From assembly GCA_017883585.1 (NCBI GenBank), contig JADGNG010000042.1:1-32455 (forward strand): a DNA stretch of 32,455 nt, in the 5' to 3' direction. The first letter of the stretch is position 1. Each line of letters starts with the position of its first letter. Below the pieces are notes generated by a model that was not told the origin of the DNA, did no database searches, and saw nothing but the letters and a program-made list of their open reading frames with translations. The translations under genes were made by a program, and so were the position numbers. This document shows, one piece after another, positions 3,082 to 32,455 of the stretch. Source of the stretch: Candidatus Bathyarchaeota archaeon (GTDB lineage Archaea; Thermoproteota; Bathyarchaeia; TCS64).

Positions 3082-3663
3082 TTATCGGATATACTTGATT
3101 GTAGCCATGCCTCGTAGGCTATCTTTCTCCGTCTCACGGTATCCAAGAGACTCCATTAAGCCATGAACATAGCTTAGGAGAAGTTTAGTGAATTCTTCCG
3201 ACATTCCAAAACCCGTGAACCTCAGAACAGCATCGTCGCCATCAGCTATCTCAACTTCGTCTAGGTTCCAACTTGCCAACAGGTCTCTTCGGAGGAACGG
3301 GATTATTTCTTCTTTCTCTAGCTTCCCAGCTAGGTATCGGCCATACCACCTACCCGCCTCCTCCCATACTGTGGGGAGATCTTCATCTCGCCGATTTCGT
3401 AGGTCATCCATTAATTGGCCCAAGCTGCTTCTAGGAACAACCATTGCGCCCGCTCCTTTGTGTATGTCAACCATTCTGTAGGCCTCGACCGCTTCCTTCA
3501 GAGTTGCAGCCCCTAATTTCTCAGCTCGCAACGCTTCCTCTAAGACCTCCACGGCGTACCCGGAGAGGCTTGTTCCCTTCTTATTTGAAACATCTTTTAG
3601 TCGGTTAACTAGTTCGCTCGGGAGCATCAAAAGCTTCGTATCTTCGGGTTGCTTCTTAGTCAA
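3082..3663 (-). CDS. RHH-like N-terminal region fused to an uncharacterised C-terminal domain (paralog A)
   Basis: 193 aa; N-term 'LMLPSELVNRLKDVSNKKGTSLSGYAVEVLEEALRAEKLG'; shares C-term WYGrY and SLGYRETEKDSLRGMATIKYIR blocks with the adjacent ORF. Confidence 0.65.
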   Translation of the reverse strand: MTKKQPEDTKLLMLPSELVNRLKDVSNKKGTSLSGYAVEVLEEALRAEKLGAATLKEAVEAYRMVDIHKGAGAMVVPRSSLGQLMDDLRNRRDEDLPTVWEEAGRWYGRYLAGKLEKEEIIPFLRRDLLASWNLDEVEIADGDDAVLRFTGFGMSEEFTKLLLSYVHGLMESLGYRETEKDSLRGMATIKYIR

Positions 3664-9104: not shown

Positions 9105-9524
9105 ATGTCAAGTCCGATTAAGCAGAGGATCAAGCCATCGCTCATGTTCACGGGCAAACACGCGGGGAAGACGGAGGAGGCGATCCACTTCTACACTTCC
9201 CTCTTCAAGGGTTCCAGAATCCTCGTGGTGGAGCGTTATGGCCCTGATGAAAGGGACATCGTGGGCACTGTCAAGTTCTCTTCCTTCACCCTTGGTGACC
9301 AAGTCTTCAACGCCATGGACAGCAGCCTCCCGCACGCCTACACTTTCACCCCCGCCGTCTCACTCTTCGTCAGCTGTGATTCAGAGGAGGAGATCGATAG
9401 GCTCCACGGTAAGCTCTCCGAGGGCGGAGTTCTCATTCCCCTGGGAAAGTACCCTTACGCCGACAAGTACTGCTGGGTGAACGACAGGTACGGTGTCTCC
9501 TGGCAGCTATTCTTCAAAAAATGA
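9105..9524 (+). CDS. VOC/PhnB-like (3-demethylubiquinone-9 3-methyltransferase domain) protein
   Basis: 139 aa; 'MFTGKHAGKTEEAIHFYTSLF...GGVLIPLGKYPYADKYCWVNDRYGVSWQLFF'. Confidence 0.85.
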   Translation: MSSPIKQRIKPSLMFTGKHAGKTEEAIHFYTSLFKGSRILVVERYGPDERDIVGTVKFSSFTLGDQVFNAMDSSLPHAYTFTPAVSLFVSCDSEEEIDRLHGKLSEGGVLIPLGKYPYADKYCWVNDRYGVSWQLFFKK

Positions 9525-10422
9525 TCGGGAACCTGAACCACCGAGGTCCGGTTTTTTATTGGGTATTGACTCAAGGATCACTGTGGGGAATTGCGAAGGA
9601 GACGCCGTCAGGCTCCGAGTTAGAGATAACGAGATCGTGATCACCGGAGAGCCGTGGCCGCGTAGGCTGCGGTCTAACGGACTCCAGAAAGGGGCGATCC
9701 TGACTATAGCAGGCGCCGACATAGCAGGTGAGGGAGTCGGTTTCGGCGTCCCAGTGGCTTTCATCGGCGGGAACTTCGTCTACTCCACACACGCCAAGGT
9801 CGAGCAGATCGATAAAGGCGCGAGGAAGACCTTCGAGATGAACGCTATCTCGACAAAGATATGGAGGAGCCGGCTTCTCTCCGGCCTTCCTGGGCCAGAC
9901 GCGCTCTTCGACGGCTGGCTTATGGGGAACCTATCACCCCTGTACCGCTCATGGGGTTTCGCTCAGATCGTGGCTAACGGATTCTGGAGGCTCGAACGCT
10001 CGACGCAGGCTATCGAACATGGTTTCTCACCCACACAATCGAGGGGGAGCGTCTCCATGGACTACGAGGTGGAAGACGACGTCATCAGGGTAACGATGGA
10101 CCCTACGGGTCTGGTCCCCGGTTGCACGAGGCTGAGTGTGATGAACGAGCTCGATGCTCGGGTCTTCGACTCCTATGAGGACTCGAGCGGGTTGACTCTT
10201 CATGGTTGGCGCGTGGGGGCGTGGAGCCCCGTCGAGGCGGAGTGGGCGAGATTCAGCGCGAGTGATGGTTCAAGCTCATTCAGGCTTTGGGGGGTCGAAG
10301 GCGCGCGGCTTTTCAGGGGGAGGGAGGTCGTGCCAGGCCACCTCTCATGGGCGGGTTTGGCGTATGAGTTGAGGAAGCCCTTATGCCTATTCACTTACAT
10401 CGTAGAGATTGGGGGTAGCTAG
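9493..10422 (+). CDS. uncharacterised protein (true start probably downstream of 9524)
   Basis: Long ORF; high G/C third-position bias matches neighbours; no family recognised. Confidence 0.6.
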   Translation: MSPGSYSSKNDREPEPPRSGFLLGIDSRITVGNCEGDAVRLRVRDNEIVITGEPWPRRLRSNGLQKGAILTIAGADIAGEGVGFGVPVAFIGGNFVYSTHAKVEQIDKGARKTFEMNAISTKIWRSRLLSGLPGPDALFDGWLMGNLSPLYRSWGFAQIVANGFWRLERSTQAIEHGFSPTQSRGSVSMDYEVEDDVIRVTMDPTGLVPGCTRLSVMNELDARVFDSYEDSSGLTLHGWRVGAWSPVEAEWARFSASDGSSSFRLWGVEGARLFRGREVVPGHLSWAGLAYELRKPLCLFTYIVEIGGS

Positions 10423-11810
10423 CCCCCGCGGAGAACATGGTTATAGAGAGCGTAGACCCCTTCGCGGAGTTCTTCGGGGATGGCCGGGTAAGGTTGGGGG
10501 GTCATGTAAAACTCGTAGTCATGGCGGAATCTCTCGTTCCCCGCTCCTCCCTCACCGGATATACCGTTGTAGATGCTCGTTTCCATGTACCTCTGCAGGA
10601 ACCTATTGTTAGGCTCCCTCTGCGCCGCCATATAGAGGGCAAGCTCCTGCTCCTCCCTACCCAGTCCCGAGCGGTCGAAGCCGAAGGTCTTCTCACCGTT
10701 CAGCGCTGAGAAGAGGTTGGCGTGCTCCTCCGTGAACATGTCCTCCCAAAACCCGACTCTCCTCGGGTCGTAGCCGAGGCCCCGGATAAAGGCGTTTGTG
10801 CGGGCGCACTTACTACAGGCGCAGCACCACCTATGTTCCTCCGCGGGGGGGTCCTCGCAGAAGCAACTCATCTGGTACTTCGCGAGGTCGGGGTACGCCT
10901 CGTGGAGGACCTTTGTCACCGCGATCTCATTAAGGGGCCCGACGAGACTCCCTACTCTAGCTGAGCCATTGGTGAGTATACGGGCGACGCTGTCGAGCTG
11001 CTGGGTCCAGCCACTGCTCTGGTCGAAGCAGTAGTTGGTCCGGAAACCTTCGGGGTGTGGTGCCTCTTTGTCGCAGCTGTTCTCGTTACCGAAGAAGACG
11101 TACCGTGCCCTGGAGTGGATCATGAAGGGGAGGAAGAGGACGAGGTAGTAGAGAAGCTGGCTCCCCCAGCCTAGGCTCGAGGGCTTGTACCCCATCCTGC
11201 GCCCGTCGTGGAAGACACCGGGCTCGTGGCGTATCATGTGGTACTCGACACCGAACTCGGCGGCCATCCTCTTGAGGAGGCCCCGCCTGTGTTTTTCCTC
11301 CCAAATATTCGATGGCTCGACGACGTTGACGAGGATTGGCTCTATGCCGAGTTCCATGCAGACTGCGAGGGTGAGGAGACTCTCCTTGCCACTGGTGAAG
11401 CTGATTATCGCACGGTTCCTCGGCTTGTACCCCTTCCCCCAGACGACTGTTTCGCCTCCCTCGTAGATGAAGTCTGTGTTATAGTAGCGCCGAATGTACT
11501 CGACGGCGGAGTGGCCGTCTAGGAGGGCGGTGCTTGGGAGGTCGTAGACGGTGCTCTTGAAAGAAAAGCTATCGAGCATGGGCTGCCTCGTGCCGTAGAT
11601 GATGCCCCGTTTGCCTAGGACCATGGGGAGGTAGTTTGTGGAGAGGAAGGCGATGTGGTCGGTGATGAGCTTCTTCGCATCCTCGTCGAGGCCCCCCCAA
11701 ACGCCTGAGGGATAACCGACCCTATAGGGGTCACCATTCAGCCTAATCTCTAGGCCCCTGCCGTCATACTCGGCGTCCACCCGCAGATAATCTTCCCTGT
11801 TGAGTAACAT
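10419..11810 (-). CDS. PP-loop/HUP-type ATPase-like protein, MurL-like (adenine nucleotide alpha-hydrolase-like)
   Basis: 463 aa; 'AIISFTSGKESLLTLAVCMELGIEPILVNV' PP-loop-like motif and Cys cluster 'CFCEDPPAEEHRWCCACSKCART'. Confidence 0.55.
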   Translation of the reverse strand: MLLNREDYLRVDAEYDGRGLEIRLNGDPYRVGYPSGVWGGLDEDAKKLITDHIAFLSTNYLPMVLGKRGIIYGTRQPMLDSFSFKSTVYDLPSTALLDGHSAVEYIRRYYNTDFIYEGGETVVWGKGYKPRNRAIISFTSGKESLLTLAVCMELGIEPILVNVVEPSNIWEEKHRRGLLKRMAAEFGVEYHMIRHEPGVFHDGRRMGYKPSSLGWGSQLLYYLVLFLPFMIHSRARYVFFGNENSCDKEAPHPEGFRTNYCFDQSSGWTQQLDSVARILTNGSARVGSLVGPLNEIAVTKVLHEAYPDLAKYQMSCFCEDPPAEEHRWCCACSKCARTNAFIRGLGYDPRRVGFWEDMFTEEHANLFSALNGEKTFGFDRSGLGREEQELALYMAAQREPNNRFLQRYMETSIYNGISGEGGAGNERFRHDYEFYMTPQPYPAIPEELREGVYALYNHVLRGG

Positions 11811-25604: not shown

Positions 25605-26837
25605 ATGGATAAGCTAGGCATCGCCTGCATAGGTACCGGCTTCATCGCCCGCTTCATGGCCCAGAGCATGACAGCCGTCAGAGATGCAGATATAACCGCC
25701 GTCTACAACCCCCACGAGAACGGCGCAAAGAAACTCGCAGCATACATCCAATCACTCGGCCTACCCAAACCCAAGACATACACCGACCTACACGCGGCCC
25801 TACAGGACAAGTCAGTCAATGCCGCTTGGATCATGAATCCCAACTACGTCCGCCTTGAAACCACAAGAACCATCGCCGAAGAAGCAACCCAGGGACGCGG
25901 CAACCTAACCTCAGTCGCCTGCGAGAAGCCCCTCGGCAGAACCGCAGACGAGGCAGAGGAGATGCTGAAAGCCATCCAACGCACCGGCTTACTACACGGT
26001 TACCTCGAGAACCAGGTCTACTCCCCAAGCATTGTGAGGGGACGAGACGCCGCCTGGAGATACGGGGCAAGAACCGCCGGAAGACCCTATCTGGCAAGAG
26101 CAGCCGAGGAGCATGGCGGTCCCCACATGGCCTGGTTCTGGGACCCAAGAAGAAGCGGCGGAGGAGTCCTACTCGACATGGCCTGCCACAGCATAGAGGC
26201 CTCAAGATACCTGCTAACCGACCCCGACAAGCCGAAGACGAGCCTCAAACCCAAGACCATCCAGTGCACCACATGCAGCCTCAAGTGGACCCGAGAACCC
26301 GCCCTCACCCAACTCAGGAAGCAGCACAACGTCGACTACGCCAAGACCCCCGCCGAGGACTACGCCGCCGTCAACATCGCCTACGAGGAAGACGACAAAC
26401 CCGTCCTCTCCGAGACACGTGTAAGCTGGTGCTACACCGGCCCCGGCCTCCGCCTAAGCATGGAGTTGCTAGGCCCCGAGTACTCTGTCACCATGAACAG
26501 CCTACAGCAGGAACTCAACGTCTTCCTCAGCAGGAACATCAAATCCGAGCAGTCCGAGGACTTCGTCGAGAAGCAGGCAGCCGAGCAGGGACTCATGCCC
26601 ATAGTCCCCGACGAGGCAGCCGCATACGGCTACGTCGGAGAGACCAGGCACATGGTCGACAGCTTCAGGGCAGGCGCAATGCCCACCGAGGACTGGACGG
26701 ACGGACTCTTAGTCACCCAGCTCATGATGCACGCCTATAAGTCCGCGGATGAGGGCAGAACCATCAAGTTCAACTCAGAATCCGTCCGAGGCTACACCCC
26801 AAAGGTCGCCACCGGCGAGTGGCGTCCCCAGGAATAA
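25605..26837 (+). CDS. Gfo/Idh/MocA-family oxidoreductase
   Basis: 'GIACIGTGFIARFMAQSM', 'ACEKPLGRTADEAEEML', 'GGGVLLDMACHSIEASRYLL'. Confidence 0.88.
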   Translation: MDKLGIACIGTGFIARFMAQSMTAVRDADITAVYNPHENGAKKLAAYIQSLGLPKPKTYTDLHAALQDKSVNAAWIMNPNYVRLETTRTIAEEATQGRGNLTSVACEKPLGRTADEAEEMLKAIQRTGLLHGYLENQVYSPSIVRGRDAAWRYGARTAGRPYLARAAEEHGGPHMAWFWDPRRSGGGVLLDMACHSIEASRYLLTDPDKPKTSLKPKTIQCTTCSLKWTREPALTQLRKQHNVDYAKTPAEDYAAVNIAYEEDDKPVLSETRVSWCYTGPGLRLSMELLGPEYSVTMNSLQQELNVFLSRNIKSEQSEDFVEKQAAEQGLMPIVPDEAAAYGYVGETRHMVDSFRAGAMPTEDWTDGLLVTQLMMHAYKSADEGRTIKFNSESVRGYTPKVATGEWRPQE

Positions 26838-27035
26838 TCCATCTCAACAATCGATTAACCCTATATATCCTCCAAGTGCCGGGTCTCCAATGCAGTCTTG
26901 GTCTCAGTGATCCACCTACACCAGCTATACCGTTAAAAAACTCGGGAAACGCAGGCACTGATCGGATGAGGATGAGACGAAGTCCGAGGAGGGGCACATC
27001 CTCCGAGCCAAGGTCTAGGACGCATGCGACGTCCT

Positions 27036-28367
27036 CTAGCCGCCTATCCTGCTTATCACGGCCCTCTCCAGCTCCCAGCGTTGCCTCTCCCGAAGCTCGT
27101 ACTTCACCCGCATCGCTGGCTTGTTCAACTTCAGGTACCTCCTCAAGTCGGTTGGGGTACCGAGTAGGACGAGGTCGCAGGGCGTCGCATTGATGGCGTC
27201 TTCGAGCTCCTTCATCTGGTGGGGGCTATAGCCGACGGCGGGTAGGACCTTCTGGAGGTGGGGGTACTGCTCGTAGACGTGCTTGATGGTGCCCGTCGCG
27301 TATGGGCGGGGATCGACTATGGTCGCCTCCAATTCGCGGGCCTTGATAGTCGCCGCTCCGTAGCCCATGCCGCCGTGGGTGACCGTTGGTCCATCCTCCA
27401 CCACAAGCACACTCTTCCCGAGGAGCCGGGACTCGTCGTCAGCTGTTATCACCATGTCCGTCTCCACGATCTGCGCCCGGGGGTTAACCGACTGTATATT
27501 CTTTCTCACCTGCTCAACGCTCCCAGGCGGCGCTGTGTTCACTTTGCTTATGACGGCGATGTCCGCCATGCGGACGTTCACCTCACCCGGATAGTAGGTT
27601 AGCTCATTCCCCGCTCTATGGGGGTCGACGACGCAGATGCTAATCTTCGGCCAGTAGAATGGGTAGTCGTTGTTGCCCCCATCCCAGACGATTATATCTG
27701 CCTCCTCCTCGGCTCGCCTTACTATGTCAAGGTAGTCGACGCCCGCGTAGACTATGACACCGCGTTCGATGTGGGGCTCGTAGTCCTCCCTCTCCTCGAC
27801 GGTACAGTTCTGCTTATCCAAGTCCTCGAGGGTGGCGAACCTCTGCACCCGCTGCTTCACGAGGTCCCCGTAGGGCATCGGGTGGCGAATCACCACCACC
27901 TTCAGCCCCCTCCGCTTGAGGAGGTCGACGAGCCACCTGCTCGTCGGGCTCTTACCGCTCCCCGTCCTGCTGGCGCAAACGCTGATCACTGGCTTCTTCG
28001 ACCTGATCATCGTCTCCTTCGGGCCGAGGAGTGTGAAGCTCGCCCCAGATGCGAGGGCTCGGCTCCCCTCGTTCATCAGGTACTGGTGGCTCACGTCACT
28101 GTAGCTGAAGAAGACCTCCTCAACGTTCAGGTCTTGTATAAGCTGCTCGAGCTGGGACTCGGGGTGGATCGGTATCCCGTCTGGGTAACGCTTCCCCGCG
28201 AGCTCATGCGGGTAGGTGCGCTTCTCTATTCCAGCCGTCGTGTCTAGGTCCGATATCTGGGCGGCGGTGAAGGCCACGACCTCGTACTCCGGGTTGTCCC
28301 GGAAGAAGACGTTGAAGTTGTGGAAGTCGCGGCCCGCGGCGCCCATGATTAACGCTTTTTTGATCAT
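27036..28367 (-). CDS. cyclic 2,3-diphosphoglycerate synthetase-like / GTPase
   Basis: 443 aa; 'KKALIMGAAGRDFHNFNVFFRDN', P-loop-like 'CASRTGSGKSPTSRW', 'IVWDGGNNDYPFYWP'. Confidence 0.85.
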   Translation of the reverse strand: MIKKALIMGAAGRDFHNFNVFFRDNPEYEVVAFTAAQISDLDTTAGIEKRTYPHELAGKRYPDGIPIHPESQLEQLIQDLNVEEVFFSYSDVSHQYLMNEGSRALASGASFTLLGPKETMIRSKKPVISVCASRTGSGKSPTSRWLVDLLKRRGLKVVVIRHPMPYGDLVKQRVQRFATLEDLDKQNCTVEEREDYEPHIERGVIVYAGVDYLDIVRRAEEEADIIVWDGGNNDYPFYWPKISICVVDPHRAGNELTYYPGEVNVRMADIAVISKVNTAPPGSVEQVRKNIQSVNPRAQIVETDMVITADDESRLLGKSVLVVEDGPTVTHGGMGYGAATIKARELEATIVDPRPYATGTIKHVYEQYPHLQKVLPAVGYSPHQMKELEDAINATPCDLVLLGTPTDLRRYLKLNKPAMRVKYELRERQRWELERAVISRIGG

Positions 28368-28502: not shown

Positions 28503-28694
28503 GATAGGTCATCGGAACGGGCGCGCGCGGTCCTCGAATCCCACTACACGGACGGGGAGTGGGACATGCTCATCAGGGTCCAGGCAGCTGACCCGGCTGG
28601 GCTGATGGCTCTGCTCCAGAGGCTTAACGCCGTACCGGGGATAACTAACAACAGGACGATAATCAGCCTTGCGAACCCGATCAGGTCAGTGTGA
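28503..28694 (+). pseudogene. remnant of an Lrp/AsnC ligand-binding (RAM) domain
   Basis: ORF without upstream start (ATG 28497-28499 is directly followed by in-frame TAA): RARAVLESHYTDGEWDMLIRVQAADPAGLMALLQRLNAVPGITNNRTIISLANPIRSV. Confidence 0.55.
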
Positions 28695-29090
28695 AGGCGC
28701 GGATTCTAGTTCATTCAGAAGGGCCTTCACTCTTGTGAGGATGTCGTCCCTGATCACCCGGATCTGCTCTATGGGCTTGCCGTGTGGGTCCTCTATCTCC
28801 CACTCCCTCATCTCGCCTCCGGCGACTGGGCAGGTGTCGGGGCCGCATCCCATCGTTATTGCCAGATCAGCCCCCAACGCCATCTCGCCGGTGAGCTTCT
28901 TCGGCTTGTTGCCGCTTATGTCTATCTCGATCTCCTTCATAGCCTGAACAACGACGGGGTTCACCTGGGTGGAGGGTTGGCTTCCCGCGCTGATGGCGTG
29001 GTGACGGCCTCCGGAGAGGCTGTTGAATATGCCCTCTGCCATCTGGCTCCTCCCTGCGTTGTGGACGCAGATGAATAGGACGGTGACCAT
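28686..29090 (-). CDS. arsC: arsenate reductase / low-MW phosphatase family (ArsC)
   Basis: 'VLFICVHNAGRSQMAEGIFN...DLAITMGCG...EWEIEDPHGKPIEQIRVIRDDI'; start likely Met at 29090. Confidence 0.9.
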   Translation of the reverse strand: MVTVLFICVHNAGRSQMAEGIFNSLSGGRHHAISAGSQPSTQVNPVVVQAMKEIEIDISGNKPKKLTGEMALGADLAITMGCGPDTCPVAGGEMREWEIEDPHGKPIEQIRVIRDDILTRVKALLNELESAPSH

Positions 29091-29121
29091 CAATAACATA
29101 TATTTAAATTATTGAATATAA

Positions 29122-29274
29122 ATGGATCAGGGAACGGCGTGGAAAAACGTGACCGAGAGAAAGGCGAACCTTGGCTGGATCGAGAAGCTACTCGCCCTTT
29201 GGATAGGGCTATGCATAGTCATCGGCCTCGCCTTGGGGAAAATATCTCCCGGACCTGAGTAAGAACCTCGAGAT
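29122..29274 (+). pseudogene. N-terminal remnant of ACR3-type arsenite efflux permease
   Basis: MDQGTAWKNVTERKANLGWIEKLLALWIGLCIVIGLALGKISPG then a +1 frame change to LSKNLEM; the remaining ~300 codons are missing. Confidence 0.7.
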
Positions 29275-29282
29275 GCGCGCGC

Positions 29283-29435
29283 GCCGCGGGCGTCGACGTG
29301 GAGGCACTGATCAAGGAGTGGGGCATCGAGGCGCCAAAAGGAAGGAGGACACTCGAAGGCGACGGACTGAAGGTAGCGCTCCGCTTGGCCGAGCTGCTCG
29401 CCGTAAAGATCGACGAGATACAAGAGGTGGTGTAG
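29283..29435 (+). pseudogene. 3' fragment of an unidentified gene fused after a GC tract
   Basis: Open frame AAGVDVEALIKEWGIEAPKGRRTLEGDGLKVALRLAELLAVKIDEIQEVV then TAG 29433-29435; no start codon on its 5' side. Confidence 0.5.
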
Positions 29436-29489
29436 ACGGCAACCTACAAGACCACCGCGGAGTGGAGGGGCGGCCACAGCGGCGAGGTC

Positions 29490-29858
29490 GTGCTGAGCAA
29501 CGGTCCCGTTCTACCATTCTCTGCACCGGCTGATATAAAGGGCGAAAAAGGCATGCTCACACCCGAGGACGCGTTCGTCGCCGCCCTCAACACTTGCTAC
29601 GCACTCATGTTCATCTGGAGCATCGAACGCCTCAAGATCGACCTCGTCAGCTACACATGCGAGGCGGAAGGGCACGTCGAGGAGTTCCTCGACAGAACCT
29701 CAACTTTCGACAAGATGACGCTGAAGCCGAGGATAGTGGCGCGGGGCTGCACCGAGGATAGGATCAGGCGCGCCCTCGAGCTCGCGGAGAAATACAGCCT
29801 CATCTGGCAGTCGATCAAGGCCGAGGTAAACCTCGAGCCGTTGATAAGAATCATCTAG
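29490..29858 (+). CDS. OsmC-family protein; homology appears to start at 29436, directly after a TAG
   Basis: 'TYKTTAEWRGGHSGEVVLSNGPVLPFSAPADIKGEKGMLTPEDAFVAALNTCYALMFIWSIE'. Confidence 0.75.
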   Translation: MLSNGPVLPFSAPADIKGEKGMLTPEDAFVAALNTCYALMFIWSIERLKIDLVSYTCEAEGHVEEFLDRTSTFDKMTLKPRIVARGCTEDRIRRALELAEKYSLIWQSIKAEVNLEPLIRII

Positions 29859-30022: not shown

Positions 30023-30877
30023 ATGGAGAAACTCACGAAGGTCCAATTTTCGAACCTGGAGAAGGTCCTCTACCCGGCCACGGGGGTGAGGAAGCTCGAC
30101 GTCGTGAAGTACTACATCAAGATAGCCCCCCGCATGCTACCATTCCTAGAGGGGAGGGCGCTCGTCGTCACACGGTACCCAGACGGGGTAGAGGCGGAGG
30201 GCTTCTACGGCAAAGACGCCCCCCAGGGGACACCAGACTGGGTGAGGCTCCACCACACCTACTCCGAGGCCGCGGGGAGGGAACTCGACTACATCGTCTG
30301 CGACAACCTCGACACACTTATCTGGCTCGCCAACCTCGCCGCCCTCGAGCTACACATACCCCTAACGAGGATCGACAAACCCGATAAGCCGGACATCATC
30401 CTCTTCGACCTGGACCCACAGCCCCCCTCGGGGATGGCAGAGGCGGGGAGTGTAGCCAGATTGATCAGGGAGAAACTCAAAGCCAGAGGTCTCACGGCCT
30501 GGGTGAAGACTTCGGGTAAGAGGGGGCTGCATGTGGTAGCACCGACGGAGCGGAGGGAAACTTTCGACGAGACCCGGGCATTCGCGCATAGAGTCGGCAT
30601 CGAGCTCGCTAAGGAGACGGGCATCGTCTCCTCCGAGAAGGCGCAGAAGAGGCCGGGCACCGTCTACATCGACTACCCCCAGAACGGCCACGGACGCACG
30701 ATGGCCTGCCCGTACAGCCTCAGGGCGACGCCGACCGCGACGGTCTCAACACCAATAACTTGGGAGGAACTAGACGGACTCGACCCGGGTAAACTCACAA
30801 TAGACAATGTCCCCGGGAAGGCGGATGCATGGAAAGAGTTCTGTAAACCCAGTAAGCGCATTAAGGCGAAGACCTAG
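30023..30877 (+). CDS. LigD-type NHEJ polymerase (PolDom, archaeo-eukaryotic primase superfamily)
   Basis: 'ILFDLDPQPPSG', 'WVKTSGKRGLHVVAP', 'TVYIDYPQNGHGRTMACPYSLRATPTATVSTPITWEEL'. Confidence 0.93.
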   Translation: MEKLTKVQFSNLEKVLYPATGVRKLDVVKYYIKIAPRMLPFLEGRALVVTRYPDGVEAEGFYGKDAPQGTPDWVRLHHTYSEAAGRELDYIVCDNLDTLIWLANLAALELHIPLTRIDKPDKPDIILFDLDPQPPSGMAEAGSVARLIREKLKARGLTAWVKTSGKRGLHVVAPTERRETFDETRAFAHRVGIELAKETGIVSSEKAQKRPGTVYIDYPQNGHGRTMACPYSLRATPTATVSTPITWEELDGLDPGKLTIDNVPGKADAWKEFCKPSKRIKAKT

Positions 30878-31147
30878 CCCAGGGACCCTTAGGATCCTCT
30901 GGAAGGCTGTCTTGTTATAGCTGAGGCCCTGCATTACACCGAAGTAGTCCCCGGACACCAGCTTTAGGCCGCTGACGCAGGCCTTCTTCATCTCGGCTTC
31001 CTCAAACTTCCCCTCATCTTCCAGATGGGCTTTGGAACTGCGATAATTATTCACTTGATTTTCTCCCATGCGGGTTCGGGGGAGTCTCCAACAATATTCT
31101 GAAAGGGTTAAGACCACGAGTTCCAAGATTAAGACAGGGATTTAGGC

Positions 31148-31945
31148 TTGAGCGATGAGGAACAGGCTCCGCCAGGGCGGAGCTTCTGGAGCGGTACTAT
31201 AAGCATCGGGCTCGTAAACGTGCCCGTCAAGCTCTACACCATGATCCGTGACCAAAGTTACAGCTTCCACTTTCTACGCAAGAAGGACGGGTGCCCCCTC
31301 CGCTACCAGAGGGTCTGTACCTACGACAACGAGGTCGTAGAGTGGGCGGAAGTGTCCCGCGGATACGAGGTTCAGAAGGGGGAGTTCGTCACGTTCACGA
31401 AGGAGGAACTCGATGCCATCCGCCCCGAGTCGGACCGCAGGATAAAGGTGGACAAATTTGTTCAGGTCCTCGGCGTTGACCCCCTATACTTCCAGAGCAG
31501 CTACATCCTCGGCCCCGACAAGAGCGGGGACGCATACGGGCTCCTCTACTCGGCACTGGAGAAGAAGGGGATGGCAGGAGTGGGGCGCTACACGATGCGG
31601 ACAAAGGAGTACCCCGTCCTCATACACACCTACAGGGGCGCTCTCATACTCACCACCCTCCGCTACCCTAACGAGGTCATCGACCCCGGCTCTGTCAAGG
31701 ACATCAAGGAGCTCAAACAGCCCGGCAAGAAGGAGCTTGACCTCGCCTTCAAGATACTCGACAACCTCACCGGTGATTTCGACATCACCGAGTACAAGGA
31801 CACTTACAGGGAGAACGTGGAGAAGCTCATCAAGCAGAAGCTGAAGGGCGAAACCATCAAGATCGAAAAGCCCGAAAAGAAGGAGGAGGTCAAGGAGCTA
31901 ATGGTGGCCCTCGAAGAGACCCTCCAACAGATGAAGAAGGGATGA
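31148..31945 (+). CDS. ku: Ku protein (prokaryotic NHEJ)
   Basis: 'RSFWSGTISIGLVNVPVKLYTMIRDQSYSFHFLRKKDGCPLRYQRVC...VTFTKEELDAIRPESDRRIKVDKFV'. Confidence 0.95.
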   Translation: MSDEEQAPPGRSFWSGTISIGLVNVPVKLYTMIRDQSYSFHFLRKKDGCPLRYQRVCTYDNEVVEWAEVSRGYEVQKGEFVTFTKEELDAIRPESDRRIKVDKFVQVLGVDPLYFQSSYILGPDKSGDAYGLLYSALEKKGMAGVGRYTMRTKEYPVLIHTYRGALILTTLRYPNEVIDPGSVKDIKELKQPGKKELDLAFKILDNLTGDFDITEYKDTYRENVEKLIKQKLKGETIKIEKPEKKEEVKELMVALEETLQQMKKG

Positions 31946-32455
31946 GGTACCAGCCGATGCTCGCGGAGCCGGTCGACGCCCCGTTCAGCGGGGCGGGGTG
32001 GCTCTTCGAGGTAAAGTGGGACGGCATACGCGCCATAGCCCAAGTCGGGGATACACTCAGCATCCTGAGTAGAAATGACAACGACATCACTCGCAAGTTC
32101 CCCGAACTCGCCGAGCTATCGAAGCTGGCCTCAAACGTGGTCCTCGACGGGGAGATAATCGTCATGAAGGGGGGCAGGCCCGACTTCCAGGCTGTGGCAA
32201 AGCGGGTACAGGCATCGAAGCAGCAGGACATTGAACGTGAAGCCGGTGAGACGCCATGCACCTACGTTGTCTTTGACATCTTGGAGAAAGGCGGGAAGCC
32301 CCTCACAGGGAAACCGCTCAGCGAGAGGAAGACTATTCTGAGAACGTCGTTAAGGGACGGGGAGCACGTCGTCGTCTCCAGCTACGTCATAGGAGAGGGG
32401 GCGGCCTACTACGAGGCGGCCGCGGCGAAGGGCCTTGAGGGGGTCGTGGCGAAGA
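31942..32455 (+). CDS. ATP-dependent DNA ligase (LigD-type ligase domain), partial, runs off right edge
   Basis: ATG at 31942 overlaps the Ku stop (ATGA): MRYQPMLAEPVDAPFSGAGWLFEVKWDGIRAIAQVGD...VVLDGEIIVMKGGRPDFQ, with adenylation motif KWDG. Confidence 0.93.
   Translation, partial: MRYQPMLAEPVDAPFSGAGWLFEVKWDGIRAIAQVGDTLSILSRNDNDITRKFPELAELSKLASNVVLDGEIIVMKGGRPDFQAVAKRVQASKQQDIEREAGETPCTYVVFDILEKGGKPLTGKPLSERKTILRTSLRDGEHVVVSSYVIGEGAAYYEAAAAKGLEGVVAK

Follow-up and report, generated by a model that had tools for sequence, protein, structure and literature searches.

The window analysed here is the entire contig C77 (32,455 bp) of a Bathyarchaeota assembly that amounts to 1.6 Mb in 100 contigs, with 84.65% completeness and an estimated contamination of 5.86%. 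Positions 30023-32455 hold a set of genes for non-homologous end joining (NHEJ), all on the + strand: a LigD-type primase-polymerase (Pol), Ku, and the first part of an ATP-dependent ligase (Lig). The original prediction of a complete Pol, a complete Ku and a ligase overlapping Ku by ATGA is borne out by the family matches. Pol (30023..30877, +; 284 aa) matches the Pfam family LigD_Prim-Pol (PF21686) with 273 bits (E 2.8e-81), scores above the cut-off of TIGR02778 (ligD_pol), and has as its nearest solved structure 5dmu, an archaeal NHEJ polymerase (E 9.9e-59). It is encoded by a gene of its own, not fused to a ligase as in bacterial LigD, and carries Asp129, Asp131 and Asp217, which from family knowledge we take to be the metal-binding aspartates. 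Ku (31148..31945, +; 265 aa) consists of the core domain and a short C-terminal tail, and begins at a TTG, its relatives starting at the equivalent residue. It reaches 257.5 bits against TIGR02772 (Ku_bact; cut-off 150), matches the structures 9vnq (E 1.1e-46) and 9i91, and its tail can be aligned with bacterial Ku up to residue 261 of 265. The ligase overlaps Ku by four bases and Pol lies 270 bp upstream of Ku, an adjacency that is kept in relatives; with this spacing, "cluster" is safer wording than one tight operon. The ca. 50 bp ahead of Ku (31099..31147, +) look alike in the window and in a genome of the same genus, G003 (GAAAGGGTTAAG...GTTCC; compared by eye), and could be a separate promoter for Ku and the ligase. 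Three high-scoring, adjacent and functionally linked genes of this kind are not a product of chance.

The ligase ATG at 31942 shares its ATGA with the Ku stop codon, and the 171 codons present in the window (31942..32455, +) match Pfam DNA_ligase_A_M with 103 bits; the gene is incomplete because C77 ends inside it, a cut made by the assembly and not by biology. By sequence comparison, the end of the window (32329..32455) is identical over exactly 127 bases, an overlap of the assembly k-mer type, to the start of another contig of the host, C81. The original prediction had proposed that a LigD phosphoesterase (PE) gene be sought beyond 32455, and a search of the host genome for this family indeed returned one copy, on C81 (PF13298, 144 bits), in frame behind the ligase: the beginning of the PE frame also matches the ligase domain. 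Read from the window into the first 1002 bases of C81 (the remainder occupying C81 positions 128-1002), the ligase frame yields a protein of 462 aa with the ligase N-terminal and PE C-terminal (Lig-PE). A separate PE gene elsewhere in the host genome was rejected, the fused copy being the only one found. The expectation of separate proteins, as in Methanocella, holds for Pol and Ku and fails for the ligase, which forms a single frame with PE.

The ligase domain matches 1vs0, the ligase of Mycobacterium tuberculosis LigD (Rv0938), over residues 5-305 (E 2.3e-40). Lys25 within EVKWDG, presumably the catalytic lysine judging from the family, and the later ligase motifs are all kept. The best solved relatives of the PE domain are 3p43, 3p4h and 5dmp, with archaeal PE structures among them. 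Its residues H348, H354, D356, R358, H390 and Y394 have the same spacing as the six catalytic residues of Methanocella PE (H40, H46, D48, R50, H82 and Y86; PMC4797286), which marks it as a LigD-type 3'-phosphoesterase, while R323 and E330 correspond by spacing to Arg14 and Glu21, both needed for 3'-phosphatase activity (PMC8656161). Both PE motifs recur in the copies of every relative except a short fragment in L141; the insert between them varies in length in four entries of family f8, two of which are one record.

The host fusion is joined from two contigs, and two genomes of family f8 (G129 and G176) encode PE in an ORF of its own next to the ligase; one might therefore suspect that Lig and PE are separate genes brought together by an assembly artefact. 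We consider this highly improbable: the 127-base overlap is exact, the fusion reads as one unbroken ORF within a single contig in G003 (L020:8443-9831), G001, G021 and many genomes of families f8, f18 and f10, and two of the carriers, G102 and G183, are single-contig genomes. Moreover, G003 has on one contig the order oxidoreductase, 443-aa gene, Pol, Ku, Lig-PE, hydrolase, ilvC, ilvN and ilvB, of which the last four are C81 genes, with 69-94% protein identity between G003 and the host. This order spans both sides and so confirms the C77/C81 junction independently. The upstream block shared with G003 (25605..28367 in the window: oxidoreductase 25605-26837, +; 443-aa gene 27036-28367, -) encodes proteins 84% and 82% identical to their L020 counterparts, and anchors the NHEJ cluster to the host lineage. 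A further genome of the genus, G002, has the Ku C-terminus and Lig-PE at a contig edge, which brings those with at least part of the system to five out of six in the genus, against four from the Pfam Ku search by itself. The genes between the upstream block and Pol differ: the window has an LMWPc (arsenate-reductase-like) gene and OsmC at 28686-29858, and G003 (L020:4504-6463) has a permease-like gene, an Lrp-like regulator (both named by eye) and a 41-aa LMWPc remnant. An Lrp-like regulator, again recognised by eye, lies between Pol and Ku in G021 (L022:11322-11777).

In the Ku tree the window sequence falls within an archaeal clade (support 100/99, on a long stem) that comprises families f1, f8, f10 and f18 of the class Bathyarchaeia, one other genome of the phylum, and relatives of Methanoperedens, Methanoregula and Methanolinea; five f1 rows group together at 99/95. 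The window groups with these same archaea in the trees of Pol and of the ligase, whose inner branching is poorly settled. Two Ku loci from outside the class (family f61), which we guess to be of the Nitrososphaerales type, fall outside this clade. The estimated contamination and the name of TIGR02772, which refers to bacterial Ku, could raise the suspicion that the cluster came from a bacterium, as a contaminant or by recent transfer, and was binned with an archaeon. The nearest Ku proteins outside the class, however, are archaeal (56-60% identity, against at most 42% for bacteria), synteny with the same genus extends on both sides, and a CDP-archaeol synthase gene lies on C77 itself. Nothing in the trees of Ku, Pol and ligase points to a bacterial origin, and related archaeal genomes also have the genes; together with synteny the trees rule out contamination, a recent bacterial transfer is already refuted, and we leave this explanation next to no probability, so that the cluster is archaeal, as predicted. 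The archaeal clade as a whole may have come from bacteria long ago.

The class also contains a second Ku type, in family f19 (L023, L024 and L133-L136), in which Ku is followed by a ligase without PE. One origin for all Ku genes of the class was rejected (AU p 0.0002), which rules out a single Ku ancestry for the class as a whole: f19 Ku has an origin separate from that of the window Ku. The data are compatible with a single clade of the window-type Ku genes of the class (p 0.48), and likewise with one uniting the Halobacteriota rows (p 0.19). The genes have probably moved between archaeal phyla, and with these two values we claim no direction for the transfer.

Among 257 genomes of Bathyarchaeia, Ku was found in 54 (about a fifth), LigD-type Pol over the cut-off in 59, and PE in 188, mostly as short stand-alone frames. 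Of 398 genomes drawn evenly from the phylum, 25 had Ku, all but four of them from Bathyarchaeia; within the family of the window it was confined to genus g1 and one g5 genome. Ku and Lig-PE are adjacent across families f1, f8, f10 and f18 and in the Halobacteriota relatives, and Pol stands apart from Ku in some relatives (by ca. 3 kb in G021, and by more than 1 kb in G151 and G129). The first domain survey gave 24 entries with the Lig-PE order, all archaeal (one record counted twice), and G002 and G459 have it too. Fusions in the bacterial sample, which was assembled by Ku similarity, comprised PE-Lig-Pol (5), PE-Lig (3), PE-Pol (1) and Lig-Pol (12). None had the Lig-PE order, a result that should not be stretched to all bacteria. 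Two archaeal loci, L055 (Methanoperedens BLZ2) and L058 (Methanolinea UBA473), have a short PE gene without a ligase domain directly after Ku, a further way of arranging these components.

Archaeal NHEJ itself is already known, from Methanocella, from Nitrososphaerales and from Ku entries in OrthoDB, which holds 19 archaeal Ku sequences (PMC11936186). A 2021 review called the pathway very rare in archaea, with Methanocella as the sole complete case (PMC8708640); in a survey from 2020, 10 of the 243 archaea examined combined Ku with a LigD ligase domain (PMC7719229). Naming Methanocella as the known case, as the original prediction did, overlooks the published NHEJ set of Nitrososphaerales (PMC7554672). 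Methanocella paludicola is archaeal and has the same four activities as those predicted for the host (Ku, Pol, Lig and PE; PMC4797286); the window Pol matches the solved archaeal NHEJ polymerase, and the six catalytic PE residues are equally spaced. In Methanocella, however, PE stands alone as a protein encoded in an operon with Pol and Lig (PMC4797286), whereas in the host it makes up the C-terminal part of the ligase protein. Bacterial LigD (Pseudomonas aeruginosa, M. tuberculosis and Bacillus subtilis; PMC8656161) has the same Pol, PE and Lig domains and Ku as partner, but there Pol is fused with Lig; in the host Pol is separate and PE follows Lig, and in the bacterial loci sampled PE always precedes Lig where both are fused. 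The Nitrososphaerales complex resembles the window in being NHEJ of Thermoproteota-related soil archaea, but is reported as a bacterial acquisition (PMC7554672), and the f61 loci guessed to be of this type lie outside the clade of the window Ku. Within the class, the f19 type likewise has Ku beside Lig with Pol next door; its Pol is divergent, however, and its ligase lacks the PE that the window ligase carries. A literature search found no report tying Bathyarchaeia or Bathyarchaeota to NHEJ, and no description of an archaeal Lig-PE fusion in titles and abstracts, key subscription papers lying outside the search. We therefore regard the cluster as a known pathway in a new form, and wider in archaea than the reviews consulted say.

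With the catalytic residues and gene order conserved as described, Pol, Ku and Lig-PE very probably form a module for Ku-dependent end joining of double-strand breaks in Bathyarchaeia. The biochemistry we infer from Methanocella and bacterial LigD, where Ku binds the ends and recruits the other enzymes, Pol fills gaps with ribonucleotides, PE removes 3' ribonucleotides or phosphates, and Lig seals (PMC4797286, PMC8656161). By analogy, a Ku dimer would bind the broken ends and recruit Pol and Lig-PE; Pol would align the ends and fill gaps, probably with a preference for ribonucleotides; the PE domain would expose a 3'-OH by trimming 3' ribonucleotides or phosphates; and the attached ligase domain would seal the nick, trimming and sealing being coupled in one protein. 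We infer that the tether between PE and Lig favours sealing straight after trimming. Three observations count against the end-joining reading: the host fusion joins two contigs, though it is on single contigs in relatives; Pol is sometimes apart from Ku (G021, G151 and G129); and in family f23 of the class LigD-type Pol and PE occur although no Ku was detected. The last of these fits the alternative that the module serves mainly in gap or base-excision repair and makes only occasional use of Ku, in the manner of mycobacterial LigC and Prim-PolC, excision-repair proteins closely related to parts of LigD (PMC5663958). That alternative appears unlikely, though it deserves more weight than contamination or an assembly artefact, for Ku adjoins the ligase here and in nearly all fusion-bearing relatives, and no glycosylase or AP endonuclease family was found among the neighbours scanned with Pfam (OsmC, LMWPc, DUF72, CN_hydrolase and a hydrolase); the neighbour is Ku, where genes of the LigC/Prim-PolC kind would sit beside base-excision enzymes. 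A PADLOC scan for defence genes gave no match for Pol, Ku or Lig-PE, and their reading as defence genes was rejected.

The f23 genomes bear on end joining as the function of the module, since their retention of Pol and PE without a detected Ku implies that these enzymes can be kept for another use. In two of them Pol and PE form single proteins of 485 and 468 aa (L165:5410-6867 in G229 and L166:5273-6679 in G230); in two others the gene after Pol encodes a short ligase, of the nucleotidyltransferase part only (ca. 190 aa), fused to PE (L167:4645-6600 in G232 and L168:4846-6901 in G234). All four are single-contig genomes, 70-92% complete. We give an even chance to the broader proposition that Pol, Ku and Lig-PE constitute a distinct and widespread archaeal NHEJ architecture, found in a sizeable part of Bathyarchaeia and reaching Methanoperedens- and Methanoregula-type archaea by cross-phylum transfer, and that the Ku-less f23 rejoined its parts into Pol-PE or truncated Lig-PE, a hint that the same enzymes can work without Ku. 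That 54 of 257 genomes in a single uncultured class carry Ku, along with a fusion order that has no counterpart among the bacteria sampled, alters the picture of a pathway very rare in archaea. Lig-PE also offers a simple system in which to ask if end trimming and ligation are physically coupled, and the patchy spread, with two Ku types in one class, a comparative handle on why some archaea keep end joining.

Two minor observations concern other genes. Three ORFs of the window have no Pfam match at E 0.001: 3082-3663 (-; 193 aa), 9493-10422 (+; 309 aa) and 10419-11810 (-; 463 aa). In genome G000, a replicative-type DNA ligase lies at the ends of two contigs, C42 (L017:3965-5047) and C95 (L016:1-975), that overlap over 459 bp with 98.7% identity; the motif I lysine is replaced by Thr in the C42 copy (EYTFDGAR) and present as Lys in the C95 copy (EYKFDGAR), a difference that is probably strain variation or a sequence error.
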